Positions 13,095 to 37,997 of a stretch of DNA of 64,000 nucleotides are shown here, piece by piece; the first letter of the stretch is position 1; every line of letters starts with the position of its first letter. The translations under genes and the position numbers were made by a program. Location of the stretch: the NCBI RefSeq assembly GCF_025717535.1, contig NZ_JAJIRO010000004.1:434001-498000 (forward strand). Reading direction: 5' to 3'. The DNA comes from Paucibacter sp. Y2R2-4. GTDB taxonomy: Bacteria; Pseudomonadota; Gammaproteobacteria; Burkholderiales; Burkholderiaceae_C. The notes beneath the pieces were generated by a model, which made no database searches, was not told where the DNA came from, and saw nothing but the letters and a program-made list of their open reading frames with translations.

Positions 13095-16000
13095 ATGCCA
13101 GCCAACAAACCCGAGACCCAGCTTCAGGGCATCACCGACCTGTGCCTGCTGACCCCCATCAAGCCCGGCTTCGTCACCGCTTTTGAAACCATCAGCCATG
13201 TGGAGCGCCTGCGCCGCGTGCTCAAAACGCTCAACGGCCTGCGCCTGGCGGCGCGCGAGTCCAGCGAAAAACCGGGCCTGTTCACCGATGTAGTGAGCCG
13301 CTTTCGCATCGTGCATTCCTTCCGCTGGGCCATCATCGAGCCCCGCCCCGGCATCGACGCTGAAGGCACGCCGCACAAGTTCTTGCTGAACGTCTGTTTT
13401 GACGGCGGCTGGGAACCGTATATGCGGGTGATCTGGGACGAGCTCGGCAGCATGCTGGACTTGATGCTGTGCCACTGCGAGGGCTATGCGCTGGCGCGCG
13501 AGACCAGCTTCGAGCGCTATATGGCCTGGGTGCGGGCCCATGAGTTCTCGGCCAATTTTCTCTACCTGGCCTCCGGGCGCAGCTGCAGCGACCATGAATA
13601 CCTGGCGGCGCTGGAGCTGCTGCAGCGCCAGAACCCCAGCGCTGGCCCGCTGGAAGCCACCCGCCTGCGCACGCCGCAGCAAGGCAGCGCCAAGCCCTTG
13701 CCCAGCCATCCTCAAGCGCGCTTCGATATGGCGGTGCGCGGCCTACCGGCGCTGGCGGCCTTGCATGGACTGGAGCGTTACTTCCTCGCCGGCGGCGCCC
13801 CCGACGGCGACTGCCTCTTGCGCGCCAGCCGCGACATCTTGTTCGAACTGCTGCAGCTCGACACCTTGCAGCAATTCCCGCTGGCTCCGCCTGCCAACCC
13901 CGCCACCGAGCCGCTGAAGGCCGCCGGCCACCAGCTCCGCCAAGTGCATGGGCGCATGTTGAGCTGGTTTGAACGCACCCCGCAGATTCCACTGGCCCAG
14001 CCGCGTGCGCTGGCCTACTTTGACGCCGACATTCAAGGCGGCATGCTGAGCCCCTACCCCGATTTGAGCGGCGGCGCTCTGGTGCTGCTGCGGGTGGCGA
14101 AGCGGGCCGAGGCGGTGGCCTGGTTGAGCGCTTTTCAAGCCAGCAGCGAGGCCGACACCTTGGGGGCCAAGAAGCCGGCCGGCGGCCTCTACCGCAATGT
14201 GGCGCTGAGCCCGAGCGGCCTGAAAGCCCTGGGCGTGCCGGCCAGCCGCTTGAGCCGTTTTCCGCAAGCCTTTGTCGAGGGCATGGACGCTCGTGCCGGC
14301 ACGCTCGGCGACCTGCGCAACAACCACCCGCGCGCCTGGCGCCTGCCCGCGCGCAACTGGCCCCAAACACAGACTCAGGGCGGCACGGTGGAGTTGGGCA
14401 GCGTGCATGTGCTGATCCAGCTTCGCCATGGCGACAAGCTGACGCCGGCCAAGCTGCAAGCGGCGATTGCGCAGCTGGAAGTCGGCTCCGGTCTGCAGAT
14501 CCTTTCGGTGCAGGCGATGCGGCGCAACAGCGGCGCCCAGGGCGAAACCCGCGAGAACTTCGGCTTTGTGGACGGCATCAGCCAGCCGCAGGTCGTGGAG
14601 CCGCCCGCCGCGAACCCGCCCGCCAGCGATTGGTCGGACGCGGTGCGCCGGGGCGAGTTGTTGCTGGGCTTCCCAACCCGACGCGACCGGGTGGCCGTGC
14701 CCGAGCAGGCCGATGCCTTGCTGGACCTGGGCAGCTTTTTGGTGGTGCGCAAGCTACGCCAATATGTGCGGCGCTTGCATCAGGTCATCGACCCGCAGGC
14801 TCAGGCCCTGAAGCTGCGGCGCGAAGACCTGCTGGCCAAGATGATGGGCCGCGAGCTGAACGGCGCAGCACTGGCCGCGCCGGGCTTGGGCGCCAGCAAT
14901 AACTTCAATTACAGCGCCGATGCCGATGGCGCGAAATGCCCTTTCCACGCCCACATCCGCCGCGCCAATCCGCGCGAGGGTCAGGCCTTGCCTCGGCTGC
15001 TGCGTCGCGGCATGTCCTACGGCCCGGCCTATGTGGAAGGCCAGGAGCCCGAGCAGGAACAAGACCGCGGCCTGATCTTCATGGCCTACAACGCCAATCT
15101 GGCCGAGCAGTTCGAGACGGTGCAGCGCTGGATTGCCGGCGGCAACGCCAGCGGCGGCTACTCGGGCCAAAGCGACCCTTTCTTGGGCGTGCCCGAGGCC
15201 GGCCAGCCGCGCATCTTCCGCTTCGAGCATCAGGGCCAGGCCGTGCATCTGGACCTGAAGGACAAGCCCTTTGTCGAGCTGCAATGGGGCGGCTATTTCT
15301 TTGTGCCCTCGATCAAGGCCTTGCGCAATCTGGCCGCGCTGGTGGAGCTGCCGCTGCCCGAGCCGCAGCTGCCGCCGCTGAAGGCGCCGCCCTTGAACGA
15401 CCGCGCCGCCTGGCAGCTCTGGCTGGAAGACGCCAACAGCCGCGATGCCGCCTGGGCCTATGTGCGCAGCCAGCCCGGCGGCGTGCTGCGCACCGACTAC
15501 GGCGTGCTGGTGGGCGATGCGTCTCGAGTGATGGACGTCTTCCGCGACCCGGCGCAGCGCTATGCGGTGGGCGGCTATGGCGATCGCATGCAACAGTCCA
15601 TCGGCCGCGGCTATCTGGGCATGGACGACGACAGCGGCCACCGCGAGCAGGCGCCGCGCATCAATGCGGCCATCGAAGCCATCAGCGAAGTGCAGGCCTT
15701 CGAGGCCGCTTACAAGGCCGCCGCCGAGATGCTGCGCCAGCTGCGCCTGGGCAATCTGGCGCTAGGCCAGAGCGAAGCTTTGCTGGACTTGGAACGTTTG
15801 TCCGAGCAAGTGCTGGCCGAGCTCTGCCGGCTCTGGTTCGGCCTGCCGAATGGCCAGCAGATGTGGGGCTGCGAATGGCATGCGCCCAGCGAGGGCGAGG
15901 CGCCGCGTTGCCCTCGCGATCTGTTTGCCGTCTCGCGCTATGTCTTCGGACCTCGGCCCACGCCGGTGGTCGAGCAAGTGGCGCGGGCCAAGGGTCAGGG

Positions 16001-16619
16001 CTTGCTGCAAGCGGTGCGCGACTGGCTGGCCACGTCGCCCAAGCTGCCGACGCTCAGCCAAGCCATCGTGGACGCCTTGCAAGAACTGGCGCAGCAGGAC
16101 GCCGACATCATCCCGCGCACGCTGGCCGGCATCATGCTGGGCTTCCCGCCCACGGTGCATGGCAATCTGGTCTCCAGCCTGAGTGTCTGGGTGCTGAGCA
16201 AAAAGCTCTGGGATCTTCAACAAGACTGGCAGCCGCCGGCCGGCGCGACGCTGGAGCAGCGCTACAGCCAAGCCATCGCCGCGCTGCGCCCGACGCTGAT
16301 CGCCACCATGATGGGTCGGCCAGTGCCGGGCATGGTCTGGCGCACCGCGCGCTCGGCCCACACCCTGGGGCAGACCGAGGTGCTGGTGGGCGACAAGATC
16401 ATCGTCGGCATCGCCTCCTGCACCCAGCACAAGCCAAGCGACCATTACCCGATGTTCGGCGGCGACCGGCGTGACGCCCAGTCACCCGCGCCGCTGCATG
16501 CCTGCCCCGGCTATGCCATGGCCATGGGCGTGATGCTGGGCGTGAGCGCCGCCCTGCTGGAAGCCGGCACGCTGCGCAATACCGGTTCGCCGACGGTGTT
16601 GGCCTTGCAGCTGCGCTGA
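13095..16619 (+). CDS. DyP-type peroxidase / cytochrome P450-like fusion
   Basis: This 1174-residue protein has three parts. Residues 1 to about 290 form an alpha/beta domain (FLLNVCFDGGWEPYMRVIWD, then LMLCHCEGY) that I read as a ferredoxin-like module without a clear name. Residues about 300-760 are a DyP-type heme peroxidase: GFVDG at 490-494 (the GxxDG motif), the proximal heme histidine region CPFHAHIRRANPR from 615, and LLRRGMSYG with the distal arginine. Residues about 780-1174 are P450-like, with the heme-thiolate segment LHACPGYAMAMG (Cys1137). The P450 part departs from the norm: no I-helix acid/Thr pair (LAGIMLGFPPTVHGN is there instead), no clear ExxR, and Phe/Gly of the Cys loop replaced. 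This suggests a peroxide-using or isomerase-type P450. No signal peptide; GGGAG precedes the ATG. Confidence 0.88.
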   Translation: MPANKPETQLQGITDLCLLTPIKPGFVTAFETISHVERLRRVLKTLNGLRLAARESSEKPGLFTDVVSRFRIVHSFRWAIIEPRPGIDAEGTPHKFLLNVCFDGGWEPYMRVIWDELGSMLDLMLCHCEGYALARETSFERYMAWVRAHEFSANFLYLASGRSCSDHEYLAALELLQRQNPSAGPLEATRLRTPQQGSAKPLPSHPQARFDMAVRGLPALAALHGLERYFLAGGAPDGDCLLRASRDILFELLQLDTLQQFPLAPPANPATEPLKAAGHQLRQVHGRMLSWFERTPQIPLAQPRALAYFDADIQGGMLSPYPDLSGGALVLLRVAKRAEAVAWLSAFQASSEADTLGAKKPAGGLYRNVALSPSGLKALGVPASRLSRFPQAFVEGMDARAGTLGDLRNNHPRAWRLPARNWPQTQTQGGTVELGSVHVLIQLRHGDKLTPAKLQAAIAQLEVGSGLQILSVQAMRRNSGAQGETRENFGFVDGISQPQVVEPPAANPPASDWSDAVRRGELLLGFPTRRDRVAVPEQADALLDLGSFLVVRKLRQYVRRLHQVIDPQAQALKLRREDLLAKMMGRELNGAALAAPGLGASNNFNYSADADGAKCPFHAHIRRANPREGQALPRLLRRGMSYGPAYVEGQEPEQEQDRGLIFMAYNANLAEQFETVQRWIAGGNASGGYSGQSDPFLGVPEAGQPRIFRFEHQGQAVHLDLKDKPFVELQWGGYFFVPSIKALRNLAALVELPLPEPQLPPLKAPPLNDRAAWQLWLEDANSRDAAWAYVRSQPGGVLRTDYGVLVGDASRVMDVFRDPAQRYAVGGYGDRMQQSIGRGYLGMDDDSGHREQAPRINAAIEAISEVQAFEAAYKAAAEMLRQLRLGNLALGQSEALLDLERLSEQVLAELCRLWFGLPNGQQMWGCEWHAPSEGEAPRCPRDLFAVSRYVFGPRPTPVVEQVARAKGQGLLQAVRDWLATSPKLPTLSQAIVDALQELAQQDADIIPRTLAGIMLGFPPTVHGNLVSSLSVWVLSKKLWDLQQDWQPPAGATLEQRYSQAIAALRPTLIATMMGRPVPGMVWRTARSAHTLGQTEVLVGDKIIVGIASCTQHKPSDHYPMFGGDRRDAQSPAPLHACPGYAMAMGVMLGVSAALLEAGTLRNTGSPTVLALQLR

Positions 16620-16635: not shown

Positions 16636-17397
16636 TCAGCGGTAGCGGGCCAGCAATCGACCCCAAGCGCCGCTGGCGCTGAACTCGGCGATGGCACGAT
16701 TCAAGCGGTCTAACTTCAGCTCGCTGCGTCGTGACAAAGCGCAGGCCATGGCCAATTGAGAGACCTTGAAATCGGGATGCAGGTCCAGCTTCAAGCCCCC
16801 CGAGCGGCGTTGGTAGTCGACAAAGAGCTGACTGGCGACGGCGTACTGCATGCGCCCCGCCTCCAGCTTGCGCAAATTGGCGTCCATGGTCGGTCCGTCC
16901 TCGCGCACAAAGCCGGCGCCCAACTGCTTTTGCAGCTCGGGATAGAAAAAGCCGTTGACCGTGCCGATGGGCTTGCCAGCGAGGTCAAGCAGCTGGCGCG
17001 GCATGGCGGCGCTGCGCAGGCTCAGGATCAGCTCGGTATCGGGCAGAAAGGGCTCACTCCAGTCGAACGGCCCGGCCAGCCACTGCGGCAGGTAAGCGCA
17101 GGCGATGTCCGCCTGCCCCTGCTCTAAGCGCTCGGCGATGCGCTTGCGCGGCAGGACCAGAAAGCGCGTCTGCAGACCCAGCTGAGCCGACAAGGCCTCG
17201 CCTAAATCGCGGTGAATGCCGCGTCGAAGCTCGTTGTCCTGCAACTCGGCCCAGGGCAAATGCGTGCTGGCATCCACCGCAAACACCAGCGTGTCCGGGG
17301 CGGCGTGGGTGGGCTTGGTCCATGCGCCCAATAGGGCGGCAAGCAATGCGCCCATTGATGCGAAAAAACTCAGCCTTTGACTTCCCGACTCGAGCAT
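16636..17397 (-). CDS. Periplasmic solute-binding protein (SBP_bac_3 type)
   Basis: This 253-residue protein has a signal peptide (LSFFASMGALLAALLGAW, cleaved near HAAP) followed by a type II periplasmic binding fold: LVFAVDASTHLPWAE, GIHRDLGEALSAQLG, RIAERLEQGQADIACAYLP and GKPIGTVNGFFYPELQ. The layout is that of the amino-acid-type (family 3) binding proteins. No ABC permease or ATPase lies beside it, so it may be an orphan sensor-like binding protein; many proteobacteria carry such stand-alone copies. It is convergent with the DyP-P450 gene (16-base gap) and downstream of GH109 on the same strand. Confidence 0.8.
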   Translation of the reverse strand: MLESGSQRLSFFASMGALLAALLGAWTKPTHAAPDTLVFAVDASTHLPWAELQDNELRRGIHRDLGEALSAQLGLQTRFLVLPRKRIAERLEQGQADIACAYLPQWLAGPFDWSEPFLPDTELILSLRSAAMPRQLLDLAGKPIGTVNGFFYPELQKQLGAGFVREDGPTMDANLRKLEAGRMQYAVASQLFVDYQRRSGGLKLDLHPDFKVSQLAMACALSRRSELKLDRLNRAIAEFSASGAWGRLLARYR

Positions 17398-17453
17398 AGC
17401 GGCGCGCTCAGCATTGCCTCAATGCCTCAAGCTTAGCGCCTTCACAAGCCTTC

Positions 17454-17488
17454 GGCGCTGCGCCCGGTGCAAGCCCCCTGGCAGCGCC
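17454..17488 (-). terminator. Hairpin after the GH109 gene
   Basis: GGCGCTGC (17454-17461) pairs perfectly with GCAGCGCC (17481-17488) over a 19-base loop, just past the GH109 stop codon. It probably ends the leftward GalNAc arm. There is no U run. Confidence 0.4.
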
Positions 17489-17499
17489 CAAGCAAGCCT

Positions 17500-18861
17500 T
17501 CAGTACTTGTCGTCAAAAGCAAAGATGGGCTTGCGCGTCTTCCACTTGCCCTCGGTGAAGTCGGGGAAGGCCAAGGTCTTGAAGCCCTCGGCGATGGACT
17601 GCTCCGACAGCGGCGTGATGGCGCTCCAGGCCACCGCGTCGTAGATGTCGATGGGCATGGGTGCATCGGCCTTCAGCGCTTCGACAAAGGCGTTGATGAC
17701 GAACCAGTCCATGCCGCCATGGCCGGCGCCGGCGGCGGTAGTGGCATGCTTCTTCCACAAAGGGTGTTCGAACTTGTCTTGGTAGGCCTGGAAATCTTCC
17801 CACTGGTGCGGCGGACTGATACCTTCCACATGCACCGAGTGGTTCAGATCCATCCACAAGCCGTTCGTTCCCTGCACACGGAAGCCCAGCGAGTAGGGGC
17901 GGGGCAGCGAGGTGTCGTGCTGCAGCAGAATCGTTTCACCGTTCTCGCAGGCCAAGGTGGTGGTCACGATGTCGCCCAGCTTGAACTTGACCTTTGCGTT
18001 CGGGTGTTCCTTCGTGCCTTTTTTGTTGGCCACATAGTCTTGCAGACCGCGCGCCTTGCTGGCGAAGGCATTGATGTGGGTGAAGCGATTGCCGCGATGG
18101 ATATTGGTGTACATCGCGCAAGGACCAATGCCGTGGCTGGGGTAGAGCTCGCCATTGCGCTGCACCGAATGCTCGGTGCGCCAACGCGCCTCTGACCAGC
18201 CTTTTTCGCCGAACTCCACACCGCTGCCATAAGGCTCGGTCGGCTTGCCAGAGTTGAACTTGACGGCACGCAAATCATGTTGATAGCCGCCCTGCAGATG
18301 CACCAGCTCGCCAAACATCTGCGCCCGCACCATCTGCAGCACCGCCATCACATCGCGGCGATAGCAGACGTTCTCCAGCAACATGTACGGCGTGCCGGTG
18401 CGCTGCTGGGTGCGCAGCACATTCCAATGGTCTTGCAGGGTGATGCCAGCCACCACCTCGCAGCCCACCGCCACCTTGGCCTCCATGGCGGCAATCGCCA
18501 TCGGCGCATGCAGCTCCCAAGGTGTGGCGATGATGACGCCGTCTAGATTCTTTTGCGCCAGCAGTTGCAGATAGGCCTGCTTGTCGCCGCTCTCGCCATA
18601 GGTCTGCGGCTTCGGTCTTTCAAACTTTTCCACCATCGCCAGCGCGCGGCCCAGCATGATGGGCTCGATATCGCACAAGGCCACCACGTCCACATCCTCG
18701 CGGCGCAGCAGCTCCTTGAGCAAGACCTGACCCCGCATGCCGGTGCCGATCAGTCCGAGGCGCAGGCGTGCGCGTGTGCCAGCAACAGCAGCGCCCGCTG
18801 GCACCATCGCCGCTGCGGCAAATCCGGACGACAAGACAAAGCTTCTGCGATTCAAATTCAT
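17500..18861 (-). CDS. GH109-type alpha-N-acetylgalactosaminidase (Gfo/Idh/MocA fold)
   Basis: This 453-residue protein has a twin-arginine signal (NRRSFVLSSGFAAAAMVP) and an NAD-binding Rossmann start (LRLGLIGTGMRGQ). The rest follows the GH109 glycosidase family closely: ATPWELHAPMAIAAMEA, LLENVCYRRDVMAVL, GELYPSHGIGP, AGHGGMDWFV, and YDAVAWSAITPLSEQS near the end. GH109 enzymes remove terminal alpha-GalNAc by an NAD-dependent elimination mechanism rather than classical hydrolysis. The Tat signal suggests export with bound cofactor. It is the last gene of the leftward arm that includes the TonB receptor and GH31. The same enzyme class occurs in GalNAc loci of other proteobacteria, which supports the assignment. 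Confidence 0.88.
   Translation of the reverse strand: MNLNRRSFVLSSGFAAAAMVPAGAAVAGTRARLRLGLIGTGMRGQVLLKELLRREDVDVVALCDIEPIMLGRALAMVEKFERPKPQTYGESGDKQAYLQLLAQKNLDGVIIATPWELHAPMAIAAMEAKVAVGCEVVAGITLQDHWNVLRTQQRTGTPYMLLENVCYRRDVMAVLQMVRAQMFGELVHLQGGYQHDLRAVKFNSGKPTEPYGSGVEFGEKGWSEARWRTEHSVQRNGELYPSHGIGPCAMYTNIHRGNRFTHINAFASKARGLQDYVANKKGTKEHPNAKVKFKLGDIVTTTLACENGETILLQHDTSLPRPYSLGFRVQGTNGLWMDLNHSVHVEGISPPHQWEDFQAYQDKFEHPLWKKHATTAAGAGHGGMDWFVINAFVEALKADAPMPIDIYDAVAWSAITPLSEQSIAEGFKTLAFPDFTEGKWKTRKPIFAFDDKY
18720..18733 (+). repeat. Dispersed 14-mer, copy 2 (coding)
   Basis: Exact GCAAGACCTGACCC inside the GH109 gene, where the other strand reads Gly-Gln-Val-Leu-Leu (GGT CAG GTC TTG C). Confidence 0.75.
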
Positions 18862-18888
18862 AGCAAAACGTGTTCGAAAAGGTAAGAC

Positions 18889-19212
18889 TCAGAACTGCGC
18901 CAGCAGCCAAACCAGTGCCGCCACAAGCCATAGCACCAGGCTCAACGCATCAAGCTGGGTAACGAAACCTTGCGAAGATGCTCGCCTGGTGCCAACGGGG
19001 GCAAACAAGCGCGCCGGCTCCAAGGCAAAGATCAAGGTGTTCAGGCCGGCTCCGCACCAAAAAAGACCAGCGGACAAACTCAGCGTGGCCCGCGACTCCC
19101 AGACCAAGAGCAAGATCAAGAGGGCCGAACCGCCAAACACTGCAGAAGTCACCTTCAGCTTGAGTGAAGGGACAGGTGCGGGCTCGGGTTTGGGTTGGTC
19201 ATTCTTGGGCAT
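18889..19212 (-). CDS. Small membrane protein in the GalNAc locus
   Basis: This 107-residue protein has a polar, Pro/Lys-rich N terminus and three hydrophobic segments (about 22-43, 49-68 and 86-105). I do not recognise a family. It lies between the TonB-dependent receptor and GH109 on the same strand, 27 bases from GH109. A strong hairpin separates it from the receptor gene. There is no good ribosome site near the ATG, so the exact start is uncertain. A role in the locus is inferred only from position. Confidence 0.55.
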   Translation of the reverse strand: MPKNDQPKPEPAPVPSLKLKVTSAVFGGSALLILLLVWESRATLSLSAGLFWCGAGLNTLIFALEPARLFAPVGTRRASSQGFVTQLDALSLVLWLVAALVWLLAQF

Positions 19213-19224
19213 GGCTTGCGCTCA

Positions 19225-19262
19225 GGATACCGCCTCCCGAGCGCACTCGGCAGGCGGTATCC
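19225..19262 (-). terminator. Long near-perfect hairpin after the TonB receptor gene
   Basis: GGATACCGCCT (19225-19235) pairs with AGGCGGTATCC (19252-19262). After one C:C mismatch, CCGAG (19237-19241) pairs with CTCGG (19246-19250) around CGCA. This gives 16 base pairs. It lies 8 bases past the receptor stop codon and before the next gene on the same strand. Without a U run it may be a partial terminator or an mRNA-stabilising element that lowers expression of the downstream genes relative to the receptor. Confidence 0.6.
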
Positions 19263-19270
19263 GCGCCCGA

Positions 19271-22210
19271 TCACCAGAACTTGTAGCTGGCCGACAAGCT
19301 GTAGACGCGGCCGAACAGGTTCAGGCTGTGGTCATAGCCTTCCCAGCCGTTCGGGTCGTAATAGGGCTTGCTGTTGAGCACGTTTTTGATATTGAGGCCC
19401 AGGTTCAAATCCTTCATCGGGGTCCAGTTGAAGCCCAGGCTGACCTCGTAATGCGATGGAACGCCGCCGCACTGGTTGGACGCCAAAGCCACGCCAGCGG
19501 CGGTGCAGGTGCTTGGGTTGTTGTCCACCTCGTCTGCATCGTCATAAGCCCATTTGCGGCTGCCGGTGTAGTTGACGAACAAGGTGCTGCCAAAGTTGTT
19601 CAGCTGCCAGGCGGCGCTGAAGGTGGCGCGCAGCTTGGGGTTCTCGTAATAGCCGACCTTGTTGACGGTGAAGCTGCCGGCGTCGTCATCCTTGTGCTTG
19701 TTGCGGTTCAGGATGGTGGCGGCCAGGCCCAGGTTCAAGCGGCCCAGATCGCCCAGGCTGAAGCGGGCGTGCGAGTCGATGTCAAAGCCGTCGGTCAGCG
19801 TGGCACCGCGGTTCAGATAGCGGTTGCTCATGCCGGCCAGCAGACCCACCGAGTACTTGGGCGCACCGCCCACGCAAGCCGCCGCATTCGCGGGGTTGGC
19901 GCACATGGCGGCCGCAGCGGCCATATTGCCCCGGTCTTCGTCGCTGATGGCACTGCGGATCACGCCCGGCGCGCCGGCCAGGGTGGGGCCGTATTGCTTG
20001 GCGTACTCGTCGTAGAGCTCCTGGAAGTCCTGGCGCACGATCTCGTTGCGGCGGTAGATGAACCAGTAGTCGGCCGAGATGTCAAAAGCCTTGGCGGGCT
20101 GCAGCACAAAGCCCAGCGTCGAGATCTTGGCGGTCTCGGGCTTGAGGTCTTTGTTTGGCGGCGTGAGGCCAGCGATATTGATGCTGCAGTCGCGGTTCAG
20201 CAGCGATTTGCCGAGGTCCTGGTCGGTGCTGCTGCTGGATTTCTTCAGCAGATTGGCCAAGGCATTGGTCTCGTCGCAGCGGATCTTGTCCTTCATGCCG
20301 CCGCGCTGGGCAAACACGCCGCCCTCGCCGGATTCGGCCAGATTGGGCGCGCGGAAGCCCTCGGAGTAAGTGCCGCGCAAGAGCAACTCGGGCATGGCAC
20401 GGAACTTCAGGCCCACCTTGGGCGCCAGATTGGCAGCAAAGTTGGGGTATTTGTCCAGGCGCAGGGCTGCGTCCAGTTCCAAACTCTTGGTGATGGGCAC
20501 GATGGCTTCACCAAACACCGCGCCAATGGTGCGCTTGCCGTCGAACCAAGAACCACCTTGCTGGGTGATGCGACCATCAGCCGCGTCCTTATTGCCGGGG
20601 GTGACAAAAGACTCTTGCATCAAGCTGGCACCAAAGGCAGTGCGCAGATCGCCGGCGGGCAGCTTGGCGACGGTGCCTTCGATCTTGCCGTCCAAGGTGA
20701 CCAAGCGGGTCCAGGACTGGATGTCAAAGGTCGGGAAGGCCTCACGCACCAACTGCGCATTCTTTTCATTGATGACGCCGAACTCATAGGCTGGCTTGTC
20801 GGCAATGATTCTGCGGCCGCTCACTGGGTCGGTGGTGAAAGGGCCGAAAGCCTTCTCGAAGCCTGCCGTGTTGATATTGGCGGTCTGGAACAGGGTTGAG
20901 TGGCTGCCGGCCGCGCTCAAGGCGGTTTCATAGTCCCACTCACCCAGCGAGCCGCGCAGGCCGGCCACCACGCGGTAGCTTTCGTCCTTGTTCTTCTGGC
21001 CAAAGTGGCCCACCGCGTCTTGCAGCAGATAGGTCAGGCCGGCGGCGCCGCCCATCTTGTCTTTCAAAGCCGGGCTCAGCTTGTTATAGACGTTATTGGG
21101 GCCGAGGAAGGGGTTGACGAAAGTGTTGAGCGTGGTGCCGGTGTTGCGCGAGTACCAGTTGATGGTGCGGCCGCTATTGAAGGCGCCGGGCCCGTTTTCT
21201 CCGCGCATATCGATGCGGGTGAAGGCGGCTTCAGCAAAGCCTTCCATCGTCGGGCTGATGTTCAAGCGGCCGGCCAAATAGCCCGTGGCGCGGCTGGACT
21301 TGGGGCCGGTGTCCAGCTGGTAAGGCAAGGTGTTCCAGATGCAGCGCTTGCCCGAGGCTTCGGCAAAGGTGGTGGTGCAGCCGGGCGCGGGCTCTTGCGA
21401 GCGCGCATTGCCCTTGGCTTTGTCGAACACGAACAAGGTGCCGTTGTTGACCACGCCCGGCTCCGAGCCAATGCCCAGGCGGAAATTGCTGATGAAGTTC
21501 GGGTTGTTCTCGTAGTACTGGGCCGGACGCTTGTCGTAGGTGTCGGCCAGCGCAATGCGGTCGCGCTTGAACAGATTGATCGAGCCGTAGATATTGAAAC
21601 GGTCGCGGTCAAAGTCACCGAAGCCATAAGTAGCGCTGGCCTGGTGTTCGCCAAAGGCTTTGACGTCGGCGGAGCGGTCGGTGCTGACCTTGACTTCCAG
21701 GCCTTGGTAGGAGCGCTTGGTGATGACATTGATAACGCCGGCCATGGCATCCGAGCCATAGATGGCGGAGGCGCCGTCGGTCAGAATTTCCATGCGCTCG
21801 ACCGCAGCGGCCGGGATGGTGTCGATATTGACGAACTGGGTTTGGAAGCCCTCAGGCGCGCCGTAGAAAGACAGGCGGCGACCGTTCAGCAGCACCAGCG
21901 TGCCCTGCGCGCCAATGCCGCGCAGATTGGCTTGCGAAGCGCCATCGGAGCCGGTGAACATCGAGCGGAAGTCTTGCTGGCCCGGCTTGGCGGCGGGCAG
22001 ATTGTCCAGCACCTGCAGCAAGGTGCGCGCGCCCATGCTTTCGATTTCTTTAGCGGTCACCACCTGCACCGGCGAGGCGGTTTCGGCATTCACCCGCTTG
22101 ATGCTGGAGCCGGTCACTTCGACCCGCTCCAGCGCCTCGGTGTCGGCGGCTTGCGCCCATGAACTCAGTCCGGCTGCGGCCAGAACGGCCACCAATTTCG
22201 TCAGCTTCAT
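19271..22210 (-). CDS. TonB-dependent outer-membrane receptor (GalNAc-glycan uptake)
   Basis: This 979-residue receptor has a signal peptide (KLVAVLAAAGLSSWAQAA), then a TonB-box-like strand (ALERVEVTGSSIKR) and a plug domain (PVQVVTAKEIESMGARTLLQ, LVLLNGRRLSFYG, MEILTDGASAIYGSDAMAGV). A long beta-barrel follows, ending in an aromatic residue (SASYKFW). It resembles the large carbohydrate-type receptors of Xanthomonas, Caulobacter and Shewanella. Its substrate is inferred from neighbours: GH31 upstream and GH109 downstream on the same strand, with the GalNAc catabolic genes diverging from GH31. AGGAG lies 6 bases before the ATG, which decides the start; the frame continues to 2261 codons' equivalent position 22261 without support. 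Confidence 0.92.
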   Translation of the reverse strand: MKLTKLVAVLAAAGLSSWAQAADTEALERVEVTGSSIKRVNAETASPVQVVTAKEIESMGARTLLQVLDNLPAAKPGQQDFRSMFTGSDGASQANLRGIGAQGTLVLLNGRRLSFYGAPEGFQTQFVNIDTIPAAAVERMEILTDGASAIYGSDAMAGVINVITKRSYQGLEVKVSTDRSADVKAFGEHQASATYGFGDFDRDRFNIYGSINLFKRDRIALADTYDKRPAQYYENNPNFISNFRLGIGSEPGVVNNGTLFVFDKAKGNARSQEPAPGCTTTFAEASGKRCIWNTLPYQLDTGPKSSRATGYLAGRLNISPTMEGFAEAAFTRIDMRGENGPGAFNSGRTINWYSRNTGTTLNTFVNPFLGPNNVYNKLSPALKDKMGGAAGLTYLLQDAVGHFGQKNKDESYRVVAGLRGSLGEWDYETALSAAGSHSTLFQTANINTAGFEKAFGPFTTDPVSGRRIIADKPAYEFGVINEKNAQLVREAFPTFDIQSWTRLVTLDGKIEGTVAKLPAGDLRTAFGASLMQESFVTPGNKDAADGRITQQGGSWFDGKRTIGAVFGEAIVPITKSLELDAALRLDKYPNFAANLAPKVGLKFRAMPELLLRGTYSEGFRAPNLAESGEGGVFAQRGGMKDKIRCDETNALANLLKKSSSSTDQDLGKSLLNRDCSINIAGLTPPNKDLKPETAKISTLGFVLQPAKAFDISADYWFIYRRNEIVRQDFQELYDEYAKQYGPTLAGAPGVIRSAISDEDRGNMAAAAAMCANPANAAACVGGAPKYSVGLLAGMSNRYLNRGATLTDGFDIDSHARFSLGDLGRLNLGLAATILNRNKHKDDDAGSFTVNKVGYYENPKLRATFSAAWQLNNFGSTLFVNYTGSRKWAYDDADEVDNNPSTCTAAGVALASNQCGGVPSHYEVSLGFNWTPMKDLNLGLNIKNVLNSKPYYDPNGWEGYDHSLNLFGRVYSLSASYKFW

Positions 22211-22327
22211 TGCCTTCTCCTGCTTAGATTGGGGCGTGTTTTGCCGCCACCTTGTTGTCAACGGTGTTCTTCCCTGTGCCCGTGCTCGGGCCTGCTTGTG
22301 AGATGTCGCGCCTTGTAGCGGCGCTTG

Positions 22328-25300
22328 TTACTTCGCGTTCTTTTGCTTTCGCTTCGCACTCGGCGCGCCGGCCCCAAACTCGGCCCTCGCACCCTCTTGC
22401 CCGATCAGGGCCGCGTTGGCCCAGTTGCCGCAGGCCTGCGCCAGCGGCGTGCCCGCCAATGCCAGGCTGCGCAATTCCAGCTGGGCAATGCCCCGCACAT
22501 CCAGCTCCGGCTTGACCACCGCCGGGGCTTGCAAGGCGCCGCTGCTGAAGAGCAAGCGGCCATCGCCCCACACTTGGAACTCCATACCGCCGGCTTTGCG
22601 GCAGCTGTCGTCATTGCCCACATCAGCGCGGAACAGCTGCCAGTTGCCGCTCAGATTCAGCGTCAGGCTTTGGTCCGGTCGCACACCCAGACCTTTGCGG
22701 AAGAGCAGGCCGTTCATGCGCATTTCGTTACCGCCGCTGGCGGGGCGATCCAGGCCAAGCTTTGGGCCAAACTTTTGCGCGCTCTGCAGATCGCTCAAGT
22801 AGCGCTGCTGCTCCTCGCCCTGCGCCGAGCGGTACTCCAGCACATGGAAGGCCGACAAAACAATCGGCTCCACCTCGCTGGCGGCCAGGGCATTGAAGGC
22901 CTTGGCCGGGGCCTTCTCCGGCTGATGGACGGCCGTCACCATAGCGTCCGTGTTATTGGCTGCATCGCCCTCGGGGTTGTGCGTGCTCAAGACCCGGAAG
23001 CGCAGCAGACGGCCGGCTGCCGGCTTGGCGAACTGAATGGTTTGCAGGCCCTCTTGCAGGCGCAGGCGGCCGGTGTGAACGGGCTTGCCCCAGTCGCCGT
23101 TGTTGTCGCCCAGATAGACCTCGTAGTCGCGGATCTGGCCGTGCTTCCAGTTCTTGTCATTGCGCGGCGCCAACTCCAGGCCGTCGATCAGGCGACGCTC
23201 GCCCAGGCCCAGTACCCACTCATGCGGGCCGGCGCGCATGGCCTGATTGCGCGTCGTGCGGAACCAAGTCTCGGGCTTGCCATCAAAGGCGTTCTCAATC
23301 GGATGGCCGGGCTCTTCGCCGGGGCGGTTCACCACGGTCAAGCTGTCAGCCGGCACCTGCCGACCCAACTCTGGCGCGGCGGGGAAGTCCTCGTTCAAAG
23401 TCTGCGGCGTTTGCGCTGCGATCTTGACGGTGAACTGCGCCGCATGCCGGATGGAGCGCTGCGCGGTCTTGATGTGAACGGTGCCGAACTTGTCTTGTGG
23501 GTCATAGAACCAGCCCTGGTTGGCAGCCTCAAAGGCCGCGCGATCGGCCACAGCCGGCAGCGACTGCCCGCCCAATTCGACGGCATCGGGCCGCGCCTGG
23601 GTGTGCACCATCAAGGCCAGGCTGCGCTGGGGCAGCTGACCGGCGTACTCACCCTGCACCGCGCCCACTTCAATGCGCACATCACCCACACCTTGGCTGG
23701 GCGCGCTCATGCGCACCGTCTGGCGGCTGCTCTTGCCTTGCTCGCGGTACTGGCGGGTCAGGCCGTCGTCTTCGTAAATCGTGCTGCTGGATTCGCCATG
23801 CGGATAAAGGTCCAGGGTCAGCTGATCTTTGGGCTTATGGCCATCAAACAGCATCTCGGGGTACATGGGCAGGATGGCACCGGCGCGCACAAACACCGGC
23901 AGCTTGTCCAGGCTGACCTGCAGATCCAGCACTCGGCCTTCGCGGCCAGCGCGGGCCAAGCGGCCGTCCCAGTAGTCAAACCACTGGCCTTCGGGCAGGT
24001 AGATGCCTTTGCGCCAGCCATTCGACGCTGCCTGGCTGCGGTAGACCGGCGCCACCAGCAACTCACGGCCGAGCAAGAATTGGTATTTGTGCGCTTCGGT
24101 GTAGGCATTCGGGTCTTGCGGGTGGTCCCACATCAGACCGCGCACGATGGGCGCACCGCTGGCCTCGGCCTCTTGGGCCAAGCTGTACATATACGGCGTC
24201 AACCGCATCTTCAGCTTCAGGTATTTGCGGTTGATGCTGCGGTAGGGCTCCTCATAAGCCCAGGGGTGTTTGCGCGCTTGGGCCGCCCAGCCGCTCATGC
24301 CCATCAGCACCGGGGTGAAGGTCTTCCACTGCAGATCGCGGGTGAAGGTCTCGGGGCTGCCGCCAAAGATGGCGTCCACATCACCGGTGGCGTAAACCTG
24401 GCCCGACAAGGCCGAGCCAATCAAGGTGGGGATGTGCCAGCGGATGTAGTCCCAGCTGCTGCTTTGGTCACCGGTCCAAGTCACGGCATAGCGCTGGATG
24501 CCGGCCCAGCCCATCACGGTCCAGAGAAAGGGCCGCGCGTCCGAGTTGTCAAGAATGCCGTTGAAGGCCGATTGGTTGGCGTCCATGGCGAACTGGTAGC
24601 CCTGGCCGGTCCAGGCCACATCGAGCTTTTGCGCGCGGCTGCCGGCGGTACCGACTTCCCACTTGATCTTGTCAACGCCGTTCTCGGTCCACAAGCCGGT
24701 GCGAAAGCCCAGCTCGCTCAAACCCTTCACCACCTGGGGCAGATCGGTGTAGCCGCAGCCATAGCCGTCGTTGGGCAAGATCCAGCCTCCGGGCATGTCG
24801 TGCTCGCGGTACTTCTTGGCCACCGAATCGATTACATCCGGCGTCTTGCCGGTGGGGCCATCGCTCCAGCCCTTGGGCACGGTGCCGGGCTTTTTGACGT
24901 TGTCGCCGTCGTTGTAGCAATCGGCATCACCGTACTCATAGGCCCAGCGCGGCAAGAGGCGGGCGCGGCCGGTCAGCTCGGTGTAACGGGCCAGCACATC
25001 ACGGATGCTGTCGCCCACGAAGTAGTAAGCGTCGAAGCGGCCCTCTTGGTGCTGCAGGCTGATCTGCTCTTGCTGGCGCAGGTCATAGCTGCCGTCGCTC
25101 CAGGTGTTGCGCAGCATGCCCCAGCCGCGTGAGCTCATCAAAAAAGGCGCGGGGCTGGGCCGGTCGCCCTCTTCCCAGCCGCCCGAGTAAGACACTTCCA
25201 GCGGCTTGCCCTTGAATTCAAAGCGGCCGTTTTGCTGGCCGCCACCGAAGAAGCGCTCACTCTTCTGGCTGGCCAGGGTCTGCACCGCCAGCTTGTCGGA

Positions 25301-25777
25301 CAGATCCAACCCTTGAGTCTCGCTCCAGACCGGCGTCTGGTTGTCGGCCTTGTAGAGCGCAAAGCGCAGCGGTTTTTTGTGGATGCGCAAGGCCAGCTGC
25401 GAGGTCTTCAGCAGCCAGTGGTCCCCCTGGTCCGCCATGCTGTGTTCCACCGCATCGGGGTACTGACCCACGACGATGGCGGCGGCCTTGTCTTGCGCGG
25501 GCAGCAGTTGGTCTTTGCTGCCGGCCCAGATGCGCAGCACATCGGCGCGCAAAAGGCTGATACGAACCCGAACCTTGGCGTCGGTGCGCAAGTCCCAGTG
25601 ATGCTGGCCCTGACCGGCCGCTTGCTCGGGGGCGGCACCGCCGGGCGCCGTCACGGCGCTCAGATCCCGCAAATTCCCAATCGCTGCGGCCTGCGCCGCT
25701 CCCGCCCAAGCCAAGCTCAGCAAGGCAGCCAGGCCCAGGGGATTCAAGCGCGCTAAGTTTCTTGTTTTCACGGTCAT
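22328..25777 (-). CDS. GH31 glycosidase with CBM32-like and NPCBM domains, probable alpha-N-acetylgalactosaminidase
   Basis: This 1149-residue exported enzyme has a signal peptide (LGLAALLSLAWAGAAQAA). A GH31 module follows: the N-terminal beta-sandwich, the barrel with KLDVAWTG (Asp386, probable nucleophile) and AVTWTGDQSSSWDY (probable acid/base Asp), then DUF5110-like ends (GESSSTIYEDDGLTRQY). At about 815-960 is an F5/8 type C (CBM32-like) domain (AFDGKPETWFRTT), and at the C terminus an NPCBM domain (VLEYRSAQGEEQQRY onward, with LFRKGLGVRPDQSL). GH31 members with KLDVAW and these accessory domains include the alpha-GalNAc-specific subfamily; the flanking aga genes support this. Plain alpha-glucosidase or alpha-galactosidase activity cannot be excluded from sequence. 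No clear ribosome site is visible; GTG at 25771 is an alternative start. Confidence 0.85.
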   Translation of the reverse strand: MTVKTRNLARLNPLGLAALLSLAWAGAAQAAAIGNLRDLSAVTAPGGAAPEQAAGQGQHHWDLRTDAKVRVRISLLRADVLRIWAGSKDQLLPAQDKAAAIVVGQYPDAVEHSMADQGDHWLLKTSQLALRIHKKPLRFALYKADNQTPVWSETQGLDLSDKLAVQTLASQKSERFFGGGQQNGRFEFKGKPLEVSYSGGWEEGDRPSPAPFLMSSRGWGMLRNTWSDGSYDLRQQEQISLQHQEGRFDAYYFVGDSIRDVLARYTELTGRARLLPRWAYEYGDADCYNDGDNVKKPGTVPKGWSDGPTGKTPDVIDSVAKKYREHDMPGGWILPNDGYGCGYTDLPQVVKGLSELGFRTGLWTENGVDKIKWEVGTAGSRAQKLDVAWTGQGYQFAMDANQSAFNGILDNSDARPFLWTVMGWAGIQRYAVTWTGDQSSSWDYIRWHIPTLIGSALSGQVYATGDVDAIFGGSPETFTRDLQWKTFTPVLMGMSGWAAQARKHPWAYEEPYRSINRKYLKLKMRLTPYMYSLAQEAEASGAPIVRGLMWDHPQDPNAYTEAHKYQFLLGRELLVAPVYRSQAASNGWRKGIYLPEGQWFDYWDGRLARAGREGRVLDLQVSLDKLPVFVRAGAILPMYPEMLFDGHKPKDQLTLDLYPHGESSSTIYEDDGLTRQYREQGKSSRQTVRMSAPSQGVGDVRIEVGAVQGEYAGQLPQRSLALMVHTQARPDAVELGGQSLPAVADRAAFEAANQGWFYDPQDKFGTVHIKTAQRSIRHAAQFTVKIAAQTPQTLNEDFPAAPELGRQVPADSLTVVNRPGEEPGHPIENAFDGKPETWFRTTRNQAMRAGPHEWVLGLGERRLIDGLELAPRNDKNWKHGQIRDYEVYLGDNNGDWGKPVHTGRLRLQEGLQTIQFAKPAAGRLLRFRVLSTHNPEGDAANNTDAMVTAVHQPEKAPAKAFNALAASEVEPIVLSAFHVLEYRSAQGEEQQRYLSDLQSAQKFGPKLGLDRPASGGNEMRMNGLLFRKGLGVRPDQSLTLNLSGNWQLFRADVGNDDSCRKAGGMEFQVWGDGRLLFSSGALQAPAVVKPELDVRGIAQLELRSLALAGTPLAQACGNWANAALIGQEGARAEFGAGAPSAKRKQKNAK

Positions 25778-26121
25778 CGATTGCGAAGTTTGAGCGGACT
25801 CTAGGCAGACCGGCTGTCACTGTCAAACCAACGAAAGCACAAACGAAAGATAAACCCAGGAAATTCAGTGAAAACCACTAGATTTTTTTGTTGAAATCGA
25901 AAATTAACAAGATAGAAAAGACTGAGGCTCAGCGCCATGAGGACACGAAAGACCCGATTAAATCGAAGCAAACTCGAAATCAGGTAAGTTTTTCCGCGAC
26001 TCAGAACGAGAGCATCAGGCTCTGAGTACCCAGGTCAAATAACTTTCTTTTTCTTTTCTTCTTTGCTACAGTGAAAGTAATTCACGCCTTCGACGGATTC
26101 CACCGTCATGCCTCTTTATCT
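25778..26121. promoter_or_regulatory. Divergent control region of the GalNAc locus with AgaR-like half-sites
   Basis: This AT-rich spacer (unlike its GC-rich surroundings) separates the leftward GH31 arm from rightward agaS. CGAAAG occurs at 25832-25837, 25844-25849 (12 bases apart, a phased direct repeat) and 25946-25951, and CTTTC at 26043-26047. AgaR of E. coli binds sites rich in CTTTC direct repeats, and the same hexamer forms an inverted repeat before agaR here. I therefore read the paired copies at 25832-25849 as the operator for the leftward arm. A pyrimidine-rich run (26044-26066) precedes agaS. A GTG at 26071 opens the agaS frame but the ATG at 26122 fits the family better. Confidence 0.6.
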
Positions 26122-27309
26122 ATGAACTCATTGCTCCATCGCACGCCAGCGGCTTGGCACGAACTGAAAGGTCTGCACACGGCCGAAGAAATTGGGCAGC
26201 AGGCGCGCATCTGGCGTGAGCTGGGGCAAAGCCTGCAGGCGCAGCAAGCCGAGATCGACGGCTTTTTGAATGAATGGCTGTCCAAGCCAGAGCATCTGGT
26301 GATCTTCACCGGCGCGGGCAGCTCGGCCTACTGCGGCGAAGCGGTGGTGGAGCGCGCCAACAAGGCCTGGGCCGCCGAGGTGCGCGCCGTGCCCACCACC
26401 AGCTTGATCAGCCACCCAGGCTTGTACTTGCAACGCGGCCGCCCCACGCTGCTGGTGTCTTTTGCGCGCAGCGGCAACAGCCCCGAAAGCCTGGGCGCGG
26501 TGGACCTGTTGCGTCAGCTGGTCGATGCCCCGCGCTTTTTGAACATCACCTGCAATGCCGAGGGCGAGCTCTACAGCCGCAATCGCCAACAGGCTGACAC
26601 CCTGAACCTGCTGATGCCCGCGGCCTCTTGCGACCGCGGCTTTGCCATGACTTCGAGTTTCAGCAGCATGCAGCTGGCGGCCCTGCTGGCCTTTTCGACC
26701 GAAGCCTGGCCGCAACGCCTAGCCCGGCTGGAGGCCTTGGCGGCGCAAGCCGAGCAGCTTTTGCAAGACTGGGCCGCGCCGGTGGCCGGCTTGGCAGAGC
26801 AGCCTTTCACCCGCATCGTCTATCTCGGCAGCGGGCCGATGGAAGCCCTGGCCAAAGAGGCGGCGCTGAAAGTGCTGGAGCTGACCTGCGGCCGGGTGCT
26901 GGCCTTCGCCAACACGCCGCTGGGCTTCCGCCATGGCCCCAAGTCCATTCTCGACAAGAACACGCTGGTCTTACTCTTCCCCTCCAGCGATGCCTATGCG
27001 CGCCGCTTTGACGAAGACCTGCTGGCCGAGCTGCGCCGCGACCAAGTGGCCGGTCGGGTGATTCAGGTGGGCTTGAGCAGCCCGACCGAGGCCAACTCCA
27101 ACGCCGAATCGCTGAGCTGCCAGCCCTCGCCCGAGCTGCTGGCCGGCGGCGATGAGTGGCTGGCGCCGCTGTGGCTGCTGATGGCGCAGCAATATGCGCT
27201 GCAGCGCTCGGTCAGCCTGGGACTGACGCCAGACAACCCCTTCCCCGACGGCACCGTCAACCGCGTGGTTCAAGGCGTGACCCTGCACAGCTATGACGAA
27301 GCCCGCTGA
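26122..27309 (+). CDS. agaS: D-galactosamine-6-phosphate deaminase/isomerase AgaS
   Basis: This 395-residue protein has two SIS (sugar isomerase) domains and follows E. coli AgaS closely: FTGAGSSAYCGEAV, VSFARSGNSPESLGAV, DRGFAMTSSFSSM, YLGSGPMEALAKEAALKVLE, LGFRHGPKSILD, and the end GTVNRVVQGVTLH. AgaS converts galactosamine-6-phosphate to tagatose-6-phosphate and ammonia, the last amino-sugar step of the GalNAc pathway. The ATG at 26122 gives a length near the usual 384-390; the GTG at 26071 would add 17 residues with no family match. The gene overlaps agaK by 17 bases, so they are co-transcribed and probably translationally coupled. Confidence 0.93.
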   Translation: MNSLLHRTPAAWHELKGLHTAEEIGQQARIWRELGQSLQAQQAEIDGFLNEWLSKPEHLVIFTGAGSSAYCGEAVVERANKAWAAEVRAVPTTSLISHPGLYLQRGRPTLLVSFARSGNSPESLGAVDLLRQLVDAPRFLNITCNAEGELYSRNRQQADTLNLLMPAASCDRGFAMTSSFSSMQLAALLAFSTEAWPQRLARLEALAAQAEQLLQDWAAPVAGLAEQPFTRIVYLGSGPMEALAKEAALKVLELTCGRVLAFANTPLGFRHGPKSILDKNTLVLLFPSSDAYARRFDEDLLAELRRDQVAGRVIQVGLSSPTEANSNAESLSCQPSPELLAGGDEWLAPLWLLMAQQYALQRSVSLGLTPDNPFPDGTVNRVVQGVTLHSYDEAR

Positions 27310-28246
27310 AATCCATTACGGCATCGACATCGGCGGCAGCAAGATCGAGCTGGTCGCCTATGGCGATGCCGAGCTGCTGGAGGAGCGCTTTCGCAAGCGG
27401 GTGGCCACGCCCTTGCACAGCTTCGACGCTTTCTTGGATGCGGTCTGCGGCCTGGTGCAAGAAGCCGATGCGGCCTTGGGCAGCCCCGGTTCGGTAGGTC
27501 TGGGCGCACCCGGCGTGACCGATCCGCGCAGCGGCCGCCAGCTCAGCTCCAATGTGCCAGCCTTGAACGGCCAGGCCTTGGGTCCTGCCCTGCAGGCGCG
27601 CTTGAACCGACCGGTGTCCATTGGCAATGACTGCCAATGCTTTGCCCTGTCTGAAGCCCATGGCGGCGCGGCGGCCGGCTACCCGAGCATGTTTGGCGCC
27701 ATCATCGGCACCGGCGCGGGCGGCGGCTTTTGCCAAAACGGCCAGCTGCTGCGCGGCCGCAATGGCCTGGCCGGCGAATGGGGCCACAGTGCCTTGCCGG
27801 CTCTGTTGCAGCAAAAATACCAGCTGCCGCTCTGGTCTTGCGCTTGCGGCCTCACCGGCTGCTTGGAGCGTTATGTCTCCGGCTCGGGTTACGCGGCGCT
27901 GTACCGCTATTTCAGCGGCGGCAAGACCGAGTCCATGCTCGATGTGCCGGCCATTGAAGTGCTGGCCGAGGCCGCCGATCCACTGGCCTTGAAGCTGCGC
28001 GAGATGCATCTGGACCTGCTGGCCTACGGTTTGGCGCAGCTGGTCTTGATTGAAGACCCGCATGTGATCGTGCTGGGTGGGGGCTTGTCCAAGCTTCAGC
28101 GCCTGTATGCCCAGCTGCCCGAGGCCATGGCCCGGCACCTGTTCGCCAGCGTGCAAGTGCCCGAAGTGCTGCCGCCCCGCTTTGGCGATGCCGCCGGCAC
28201 ACGCGGCGCCGCGCTCTTGGCCCTGCAAGCCGCTCATTTGGCATAA
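27293..28246 (+). CDS. agaK: ROK-family GalNAc kinase AgaK
   Basis: This 317-residue ROK kinase shows the ATP-binding start YGIDIGGSKIEL, the substrate loop IGNDCQCFALSE with the catalytic Asp, IIGTGAGGGF, LAGEWGHSAL, and the zinc site CACGLTGCLERYVSG (consensus CxCGxxGCxE). ROK kinases phosphorylate sugars on O6. In the aga context the expected reaction is GalNAc to GalNAc-6-phosphate, as with AgaK in Shewanella. This fits an import route by an MFS permease rather than by a phosphotransferase system, and no PTS component is present. GlcNAc kinase activity is a possible alternative. Confidence 0.87.
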   Translation: MTKPAEIHYGIDIGGSKIELVAYGDAELLEERFRKRVATPLHSFDAFLDAVCGLVQEADAALGSPGSVGLGAPGVTDPRSGRQLSSNVPALNGQALGPALQARLNRPVSIGNDCQCFALSEAHGGAAAGYPSMFGAIIGTGAGGGFCQNGQLLRGRNGLAGEWGHSALPALLQQKYQLPLWSCACGLTGCLERYVSGSGYAALYRYFSGGKTESMLDVPAIEVLAEAADPLALKLREMHLDLLAYGLAQLVLIEDPHVIVLGGGLSKLQRLYAQLPEAMARHLFASVQVPEVLPPRFGDAAGTRGAALLALQAAHLA

Positions 28247-28280
28247 GCCGCCTCAAATCTCCCACGGAATTCTTCAGCTC

Positions 28281-29636: not shown

Positions 29637-29639
29637 TTT

Positions 29640-29675
29640 CTTTCGATCTCTTATGCTGAGGCCATCGATCGAAAG
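29640..29675. promoter_or_regulatory. Inverted repeat before agaR, candidate AgaR operator
   Basis: CTTTCGATC (29640-29648) and its exact reverse complement GATCGAAAG (29667-29675) are 18 bases apart, directly before the agaR ATG at 29688. A third half-site, CGAAAG, is at 29618-29623. The same hexamer is repeated in the agaS/GH31 spacer. Autoregulation by the DeoR-type protein encoded next to it is the natural reading. Confidence 0.6.
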
Positions 29676-29687
29676 CTGAATTTCGCC

Positions 29688-30470: not shown

Positions 30471-30522
30471 ACAAAAGCCTGCCCCGCGCGCCCGACCGGT
30501 CTCCTCTCTTCTCACCCTTGCC

Positions 30523-36619: not shown

Positions 36620-36644
36620 CCTACAACCAGTGGATGCGTTTGAA

Positions 36645-37865: not shown

Positions 37866-37997
37866 TCTTTTCCCCTGCCTCTGACTGGATGCGCCAGGGC
37901 TGCTGCGCCGCTGAAATACGGCGCCAGCTGCCCTCAAGCGCTGTTTGGATCAGGGGGCATTGTCGGGTATGACTTATGACAGCTTCTAGGGATCAAA

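Follow-up and report, generated by a model that had tools for sequence, protein, structure and literature searches.

What does a bacterium do with a peroxidase and a P450 joined in a single protein? The question is raised by a window of 64,000 nucleotides from Paucibacter sp. Y2R2-4 (contig NZ_JAJIRO010000004.1, positions 434,001 to 498,000), in which positions 13095-16619 of the forward strand hold one uninterrupted, ATG-initiated frame of 1174 amino acids. An earlier note, made from the letters alone, read this frame as a DyP peroxidase fused to a P450-like domain. It placed a GxxDG motif at residues 490-494, a heme His region at 615, an RRGMSYG motif, and HACPG at a heme Cys1137, and each was found where it had been placed. 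At a little under even confidence, we propose that the protein oxidises a lipid-derived substrate with two hemes and no reductase, and that this activity is tied to cyclic-nucleotide signalling.

A narrow family of three-part proteins

The fusion is a regular but narrow family and no artefact of a single assembly. A scan of the genome contigs of GTDB species gave 68 distinct homologous loci (best-segment identity 35-92%), mostly in Burkholderiales (Roseateles, Paucibacter, Pelomonas, Variovorax, Xenophilus, Rubrivivax and others), with two in Bradyrhizobium. Sixty loci were usable whole and eight were truncated at contig ends; these eight, together with L046, which is identical to L047, were omitted from the domain alignments, and cut loci were counted in the columns they hold. 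Because there are 68 such loci, conserved down to 33% identity to the window protein in the P450 part and 31% in the N part, the fusion is not a product of chance. The full architecture occurs in 20 of 200 genomes sampled from the window's family (counting rows that span all three domains, one row being two pieces of one frame), and any match at all in 44. A profile of the P450 part, run against 398 genomes of the phylum, found the fusion in two, one of them the window's own genome; one extra weak match was an ordinary P450 (a frame with a Pfam p450 match at 4.4e-27). Beyond Pseudomonadota, the search reached close relatives only, through short exact patterns in all bacteria and archaea, and plasmid records. 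No phage relatives were found, and viral contigs gave seven pattern matches, none of them confirmed.

The DyP peroxidase domain occupies residues 301-752 (13995..15350, forward strand) and is all that Pfam and NCBIfam recognise in the frame. Pfam Dyp_perox_C matches at 2.6e-9 with 37.5 bits (cut-off 20), DyP_N stays at 11.7 bits, below its 27.5, and NCBIfam Dyp_perox_fam reaches 99.8 against a cut-off of 100.5, marginally below. Against the PDB, phmmer finds 8re3 at 2.5e-33 (residues 369-748) and DyP2 (4g2c) at 9.9e-26. Judged by scores alone, C/D chains (8e-14 to 2.5e-33) lie closer than EfeB/deferrochelatase types (2e-6 to 6e-5), making the domain class V (C/D)-like, given class labels of 4g2c and 8re3 that we in part assume. 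The site comprises GxxDG (G490, D493, G494), CPFHAHIRR at 615-623 with H620, and RRGMSYG at 637-643. We take D493, H620 and R637 to be the distal Asp, proximal His and distal Arg of DyP peroxidases; they are invariant in the rows that cover them (68/68, 67/67 and 67/67). The domain shares homology over 369-748 and an Asp/His/Arg site with class V enzymes, from which the fusion differs in that its DyP has an ABM-like N-domain on one side and a P450 on the other. The site looks catalytically complete, in keeping with the complete peroxidase that the note had described.

The fusion probably formed once. In an unrooted tree of 42 DyP rows (29 chosen fusions, L087 and 12 split forms; a midpoint root served only for drawing), the 30 fusion DyPs are set apart from the split forms by a branch with 100/100 support, so that a single origin suffices.

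The P450 part and its missing motifs

Residues 753-1171 (15351..16607, forward strand) would be rejected as a P450 by sequence families alone, because Pfam p450 has no match in any of 60 fusion members. Structure prediction nevertheless gives this part a P450 fold, with 345 residues aligned, and the earlier assignment holds. HACPG lies at 1135-1139, and C1137 is the presumed heme ligand (CxG). C1137, H1135 and G1139 of the expected heme cradle are kept in 63 of 63 rows, and W1082 and R1083 in 64 of 64. We infer that this part binds heme, which would make the chain a di-heme protein.

The window protein has no K-helix ExxR, and 63 of 64 rows lack it, in columns on which three alignments agree; its reported absence therefore extends across the family, with L027, which keeps the motif, as the exception. 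In the I-helix (GFPPTVHGN, 1016-1024), columns 1018-1020 hold no D or E in 64 rows, so that no register found contains the acid, the register itself being uncertain by one or two residues in two later alignments. Whether the alcohol is present depends on this register. The missing acid/Thr pair of the earlier note is accordingly borne out for the acid and left register-dependent for the alcohol. Columns 1018-1021 read P/A/L/G/T, P/A, T/S and V/T/L. A CYP152-like I-helix, with Pro replacing the catalytic Thr, was considered and dropped, as the later alignments shift the register by one or two residues. The comparison set of ordinary P450s was small, 3 of 12 loci having passed a motif filter that itself requires the acid-alcohol motif.

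That ExxR and the I-helix acid are missing is, as far as these alignments go, a trait of the family. Because both were lost family-wide, the P450 part probably does not work with O2 and a reductase as P450s usually do, and we think it rather more probable than otherwise that it uses peroxide. The note's idea of a hydroperoxide-type P450 gains from these losses.

The N-domain and the split relatives

The earlier note had left an alpha/beta domain at 1-290 unexplained. An extra domain does exist (residues 1-300; 13095..13994, forward strand), but it is a ferredoxin-like or ABM-type alpha+beta domain only at about 10-162, where DGGWEPYMR is conserved, and is helical at about 200-295. It has no Pfam match of note and no valuable PDB sequence match, and fold comparison gave weak matches only. 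An N-type domain also occurs as a separate gene preceding a DyP gene in seven of seven N-type regions, these being all the N-type matches of one search. The domain is accounted for by the split-gene forms, which, like the cyclase partner described below, lie beyond the coordinates that the note covered.

Split forms place the three parts side by side. In L084, L085 and L086, all from the window's family, a cyclase-like/AAA gene, a P450 gene with a C-terminal N-type domain, and a DyP gene run in one direction. In two of these loci (L084 and L086), a gene for a patatin phospholipase comes next. The fusion's N profile detects the N-type C-terminus only in L086, and L084 and L085 were placed through 44-53% identity to L086. 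The AAA gene of L085 has no Guanylate_cyc match at threshold and matches the cyclase query over 15-294. In L110, N, DyP and P450 are three genes in the order seen inside the fusion. L082 to L086 show existence rather than frequency, as they were picked for DyP and cyclase matches lying close together.

The P450 domains of fusion and split forms are homologous (hhalign 1e-14), and Pfam p450 recognises the split genes unevenly: 52.1 bits in L110 (5.9e-14), 24.8 in L086 (cut-off 22.8), 21.8 in L085 and nothing in L084. ExxR is kept in L085, L086 and L110 and not in L084; the I-helix acid is in none of the four. Since the three split P450s that keep ExxR are already without the acid, the acid appears to have been lost before ExxR.

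A possible lipid context

A gene for a patatin-like phospholipase lies on the fusion's strand in 10 of 59 loci, with its end 20-56 bp upstream of the fusion, and GxSxG and DGG are present in all ten. The 59 are the loci that have 2.5 kb of upstream sequence; L047 is an identical copy of L046, and L024 and L034 are only about 30% like the query. Seven patatin-bearing loci included in the DyP tree fall into two separate fusion clades, for which reason the patatin may be ancestral, with a later loss in the Roseateles line that would cover the window's genome too. Further, in L087 (356-5152, genome G111), a GDSL lipase/acylhydrolase-like domain follows the P450 in frame (Pfam 7.5e-6, 27.0 bits, below a cut-off of 32.9). 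The patatins, upstream or in split operons, and the GDSL-like domain are independent hints of a lipid substrate, which we regard as quite possible, if somewhat short of even.

Not every N-DyP context is lipid-like, because neighbours of other kinds occur. A RoxA-like cytochrome c gene lies downstream of the N-DyP pair in L109 (4388-5806, reverse strand), and a catalase-like gene lies upstream of the pair in L106 (6216-7454, forward strand), both of them further oxidative enzymes in this setting. The neighbours checked in L107 and L112 have no Pfam match, and the one in L111 is an Exo_endo_phos gene.

A linked nucleotidyl cyclase

A cyclase gene follows the fusion in 54 of the 58 loci having at least 3 kb downstream. 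Its product is a class III nucleotidyl cyclase joined to an AAA_16 ATPase and TPR repeats, an identity checked with Pfam on three relatives. The two genes lie within 300 bp or overlap in 42 of the 54 loci, are 588 bp apart in one, and are separated by 1.4-6.9 kb in eleven. In L064 only a weak cyclase match follows the fusion. In the window, the orthologue lies at 33539..36769 on the reverse strand (true start uncertain), 17 kb from the fusion and behind a sugar cluster. It matches by tblastn over 33542-36580 (62%), it is the best match in its own genome (65%), and Pfam finds Guanylate_cyc (3.5e-19) and AAA_16 (3.9e-21).

Presence of the two genes coincides as well. Among the 200 sampled genomes, a close cyclase (over 200 bits) occurs in 22, comprising all 20 fusion genomes, each on the same contig, plus G542 and G508 (Fisher 1.4e-25, inflated by shared ancestry). 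In these last two no fusion was found in the retrieved DNA, which amounts to 18 kb for L080 and only 3.5 kb for L081. Orientation varies little: in the two Bradyrhizobium loci (L032 and L041), cyclase and fusion are read in one direction. A Sphingopyxis plasmid carries a fusion that lacks its 5′ part and still overlaps the cyclase gene at the 3′ end. This copy (L090, 4959-10409 of NZ_CP102385.1, plasmid pDB-1) is without the N-part and stands directly after a Tn3-family transposase.

Of 60 cyclase rows collected, 58 hold the scored columns. D26, D70 and the P-loop K255 are kept in all 58, N149 in 50 and R153 in 51. We take D26 and D70 to be the metal pair, and N149 and R153 the transition-state Asn and Arg. 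Positions 66 (R in 49, Q in 9) and 146 (N in 27, P in 10, A in 6, T in 5, and others) are presumably the usual base-selecting sites of class III cyclases. The partner resembles class III cyclase-AAA-TPR proteins, presumably of the soluble-adenylyl-cyclase-like/STAND type, in its domains, its metal Asp pair and its P-loop Lys. Its subfamily differs in being associated with a DyP-P450 fusion and in its varying base-selecting positions. A signalling link from the fusion to a cyclic nucleotide is a tentative suggestion, and distinctly less than even.

The AAA/TPR partner in the split locus L085 (9087-13193, reverse strand) has an N-terminal CHAT-domain match just below threshold (23.5 bits against 24).

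Comparison with known systems

Fusions of a peroxidase with a P450 are on record in fungi and oomycetes, with a cyclooxygenase-like partner (PMC5919972, PMC4420034). Among them are CYP6001-6005, the linoleate diol synthases (LDS) and Ppo enzymes, in which a heme peroxidase-type domain lies N-terminal to a P450 in one chain, as in the bacterial fusion. A lipid context is a further likeness, suspected only in the latter. However, the partner in LDS and CYP5619 is a domain of the peroxidase-cyclooxygenase superfamily, whereas the bacterial partner is a DyP accompanied by an extra N-domain and a linked cyclase. The oomycete CYP5619 also keeps ExxR as E-V-K/Q-R (PMC5919972), and the bacterial fusion has lost it. 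Because the heme domain before the P450 is a DyP, the comparison is one of analogy, and by this the bacterial fusion is not a member of the LDS family. The LDS-like scheme of the earlier note, with a first domain that makes a hydroperoxide for the P450, is unproven and finds no support in the form given: a DyP is a peroxidase that consumes peroxide, and the LDS first domain, which makes the hydroperoxide, is a heme peroxidase/dioxygenase of another superfamily.

Two groups of P450s offer partial parallels. In CYP152 peroxygenases, Arg-Pro replaces the acid-alcohol pair (PMC5818669). The fusion resembles them in not having that pair as a pair and in its expected use of peroxide, yet it has no Arg in columns 1018-1021, and CYP152 enzymes stand alone. 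CYP157 and other EXXR-less P450s are Streptomyces enzymes that likewise miss the K-helix ExxR and keep the heme Cys, a likeness drawn by description only (PMC3990721).

How might the fusion work?

We suggest that three parts, which are neighbouring genes in other Proteobacteria, became fused: an ABM-like N-domain, a class V-like DyP and a P450-fold heme-thiolate domain, the last having given up residues with which P450s activate O2 when served by a reductase. In some relatives (10 of 59 loci), the substrate would come from a patatin phospholipase or a lipase, and the N-domain may help to bind or shape it. The DyP heme, with H2O2 or another peroxide, could turn a hydrophobic substrate, probably derived from a fatty acyl chain, into a radical or a peroxidised intermediate. 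The P450 heme might finish this intermediate through peroxide or hydroperoxide, by peroxygenase, isomerase or lyase chemistry. Finally, the neighbouring STAND-type cyclase would read the product or the peroxide state and turn it into a cyclic-nucleotide signal. More speculatively, and in our judgement unlikely as a complete scheme, these steps would amount to bacterial oxylipin signalling, in which a patatin or lipase frees an acyl chain, the DyP-P450 converts it independently of a reductase through a P450 heme without ExxR or the I-helix acid, and the cyclase senses the product and makes a cyclic nucleotide, convergent with fungal Ppo/LDS.

Several observations weigh against a reductase-independent lipid oxidase tied to signalling. 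Residue 1020 is T or S in 64 of 64 rows, and with this residue retained, the P450 part might conceivably still activate O2; a CYP152-type Arg was not found in I-helix columns 1018-1021. No patatin lies upstream in 49 of the 59 loci, none matches in the window, and none was found in the window's genome by a search run without a positive control. L082 and L083 have N-type genes followed by DyP, together with a cyclase/AAA gene that converges on the DyP gene one gene further on, and no P450. L006, L009 and L017 carry the fusion with no cyclase within the following 10 kb. Cyclase and fusion are convergent in 52 of the 54 loci and hence do not form one transcript. None of 82 matching plasmid records covers at least 80% of the protein, and a limited literature search turned up no DyP reported to make fatty-acid hydroperoxides.

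Other explanations deserve comparison. The chain might carry two peroxide enzymes that work independently, with the P450 acting as an H2O2-driven peroxygenase on a substrate of its own, the DyP removing excess H2O2 or recycling the product, and no intermediate passed between them. That key residues are kept at both heme sites and that DyPs are peroxidases by family would fit; but the parts adjoin as genes in several arrangements, including the fusion order, which suggests more than tethering, and the carboxylate-binding Arg of CYP152 (PMC5818669) is missing from the I-helix columns. We consider this somewhat unlikely. Quite unlikely, in our view, is a P450 part that survives as a non-catalytic remnant, a heme-binding, structural or sensor domain that regulates the DyP or makes contact with the cyclase. 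Such a remnant would explain the 0 of 60 Pfam matches and the loss of ExxR in 63 of 64 rows and of the acid in 64, yet it sits poorly with an expected heme cradle whose Cys, His, Arg and Trp are invariant at identities down to 33%, and with a P450 fold across 345 aligned residues.

It is very unlikely that the P450 part is an ordinary monooxygenase whose ferredoxin and reductase are encoded elsewhere and whose motif losses are as neutral as in CYP157. EXXR-less Streptomyces P450s are termed functional in PMC3990721, T/S1020 is universal, and the window's genome has one ordinary P450, so that redox partners may exist. Against this, columns 1018-1020 hold no acid in 64 rows, and L085, L086 and L110 lack it too despite keeping ExxR, suggesting that the acid went first. 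STAND-like proteins, cyclases and patatins also serve as parts of defence systems, and PycC models pick up the cyclase at up to 50.8 bits (residues 18-167), as would suit a module in which cyclase, patatin and oxidase act against phage or oxidative attack. However, the PycC match is limited to a cyclase domain common to class III cyclases, PADLOC gave no match for the fusion, one patatin and one split P450, and a RecQ-like gene (by eye), kept upstream of the fusion in 21 loci and the window, speaks for a settled position on the chromosome in that lineage. We rate a defence or stress role as the least probable of these accounts.

If the oxylipin-signalling scheme is correct, the system would be a bacterial counterpart of the Ppo/LDS pathway built on a different peroxidase superfamily. 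A conserved bacterial DyP fusion would be an independent route to the peroxidase-P450 design. We found no published report of a DyP-P450 fusion or of its cyclase link in the open-licence PMC literature. To our knowledge, the natural substrates of DyPs are mostly unsettled, and these enzymes would gain a concrete context in an N-partner, a P450, lipases and a cyclase. ExxR has been lost in this family and is kept by some of its split relatives, which offers a natural experiment on ExxR function. This P450 branch may also be absent from P450 counts, because it is invisible to Pfam and the single annotated record inspected names only a DyP-type protein.

Neighbouring genes in the window

Many seemingly conserved neighbouring open reading frames were discarded as mere shadows, lying antisense to or out of frame within the fusion or cyclase gene. 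A second conserved gene does lie beyond the cyclase (36645..37937, reverse strand, about 400 amino acids). It is present in 21 loci, shares 75% with its L018 counterpart and has no Pfam family; by eye it looks like a diverged cyclase-homology protein.

Between fusion and cyclase, the block at 16636..33542 encodes, by Pfam, a solute-binding protein, GH109, a TonB receptor, GH31 carrying NPCBM, SIS, a ROK kinase, GatZ/KbaZ, a DeoR regulator and a sugar transporter. From these families, it is probably an N-acetylgalactosamine-type sugar cluster. The block looks inserted at the convergent junction and outside the fusion-cyclase module, since 43 of 54 relatives have the two genes no more than 600 bp apart.

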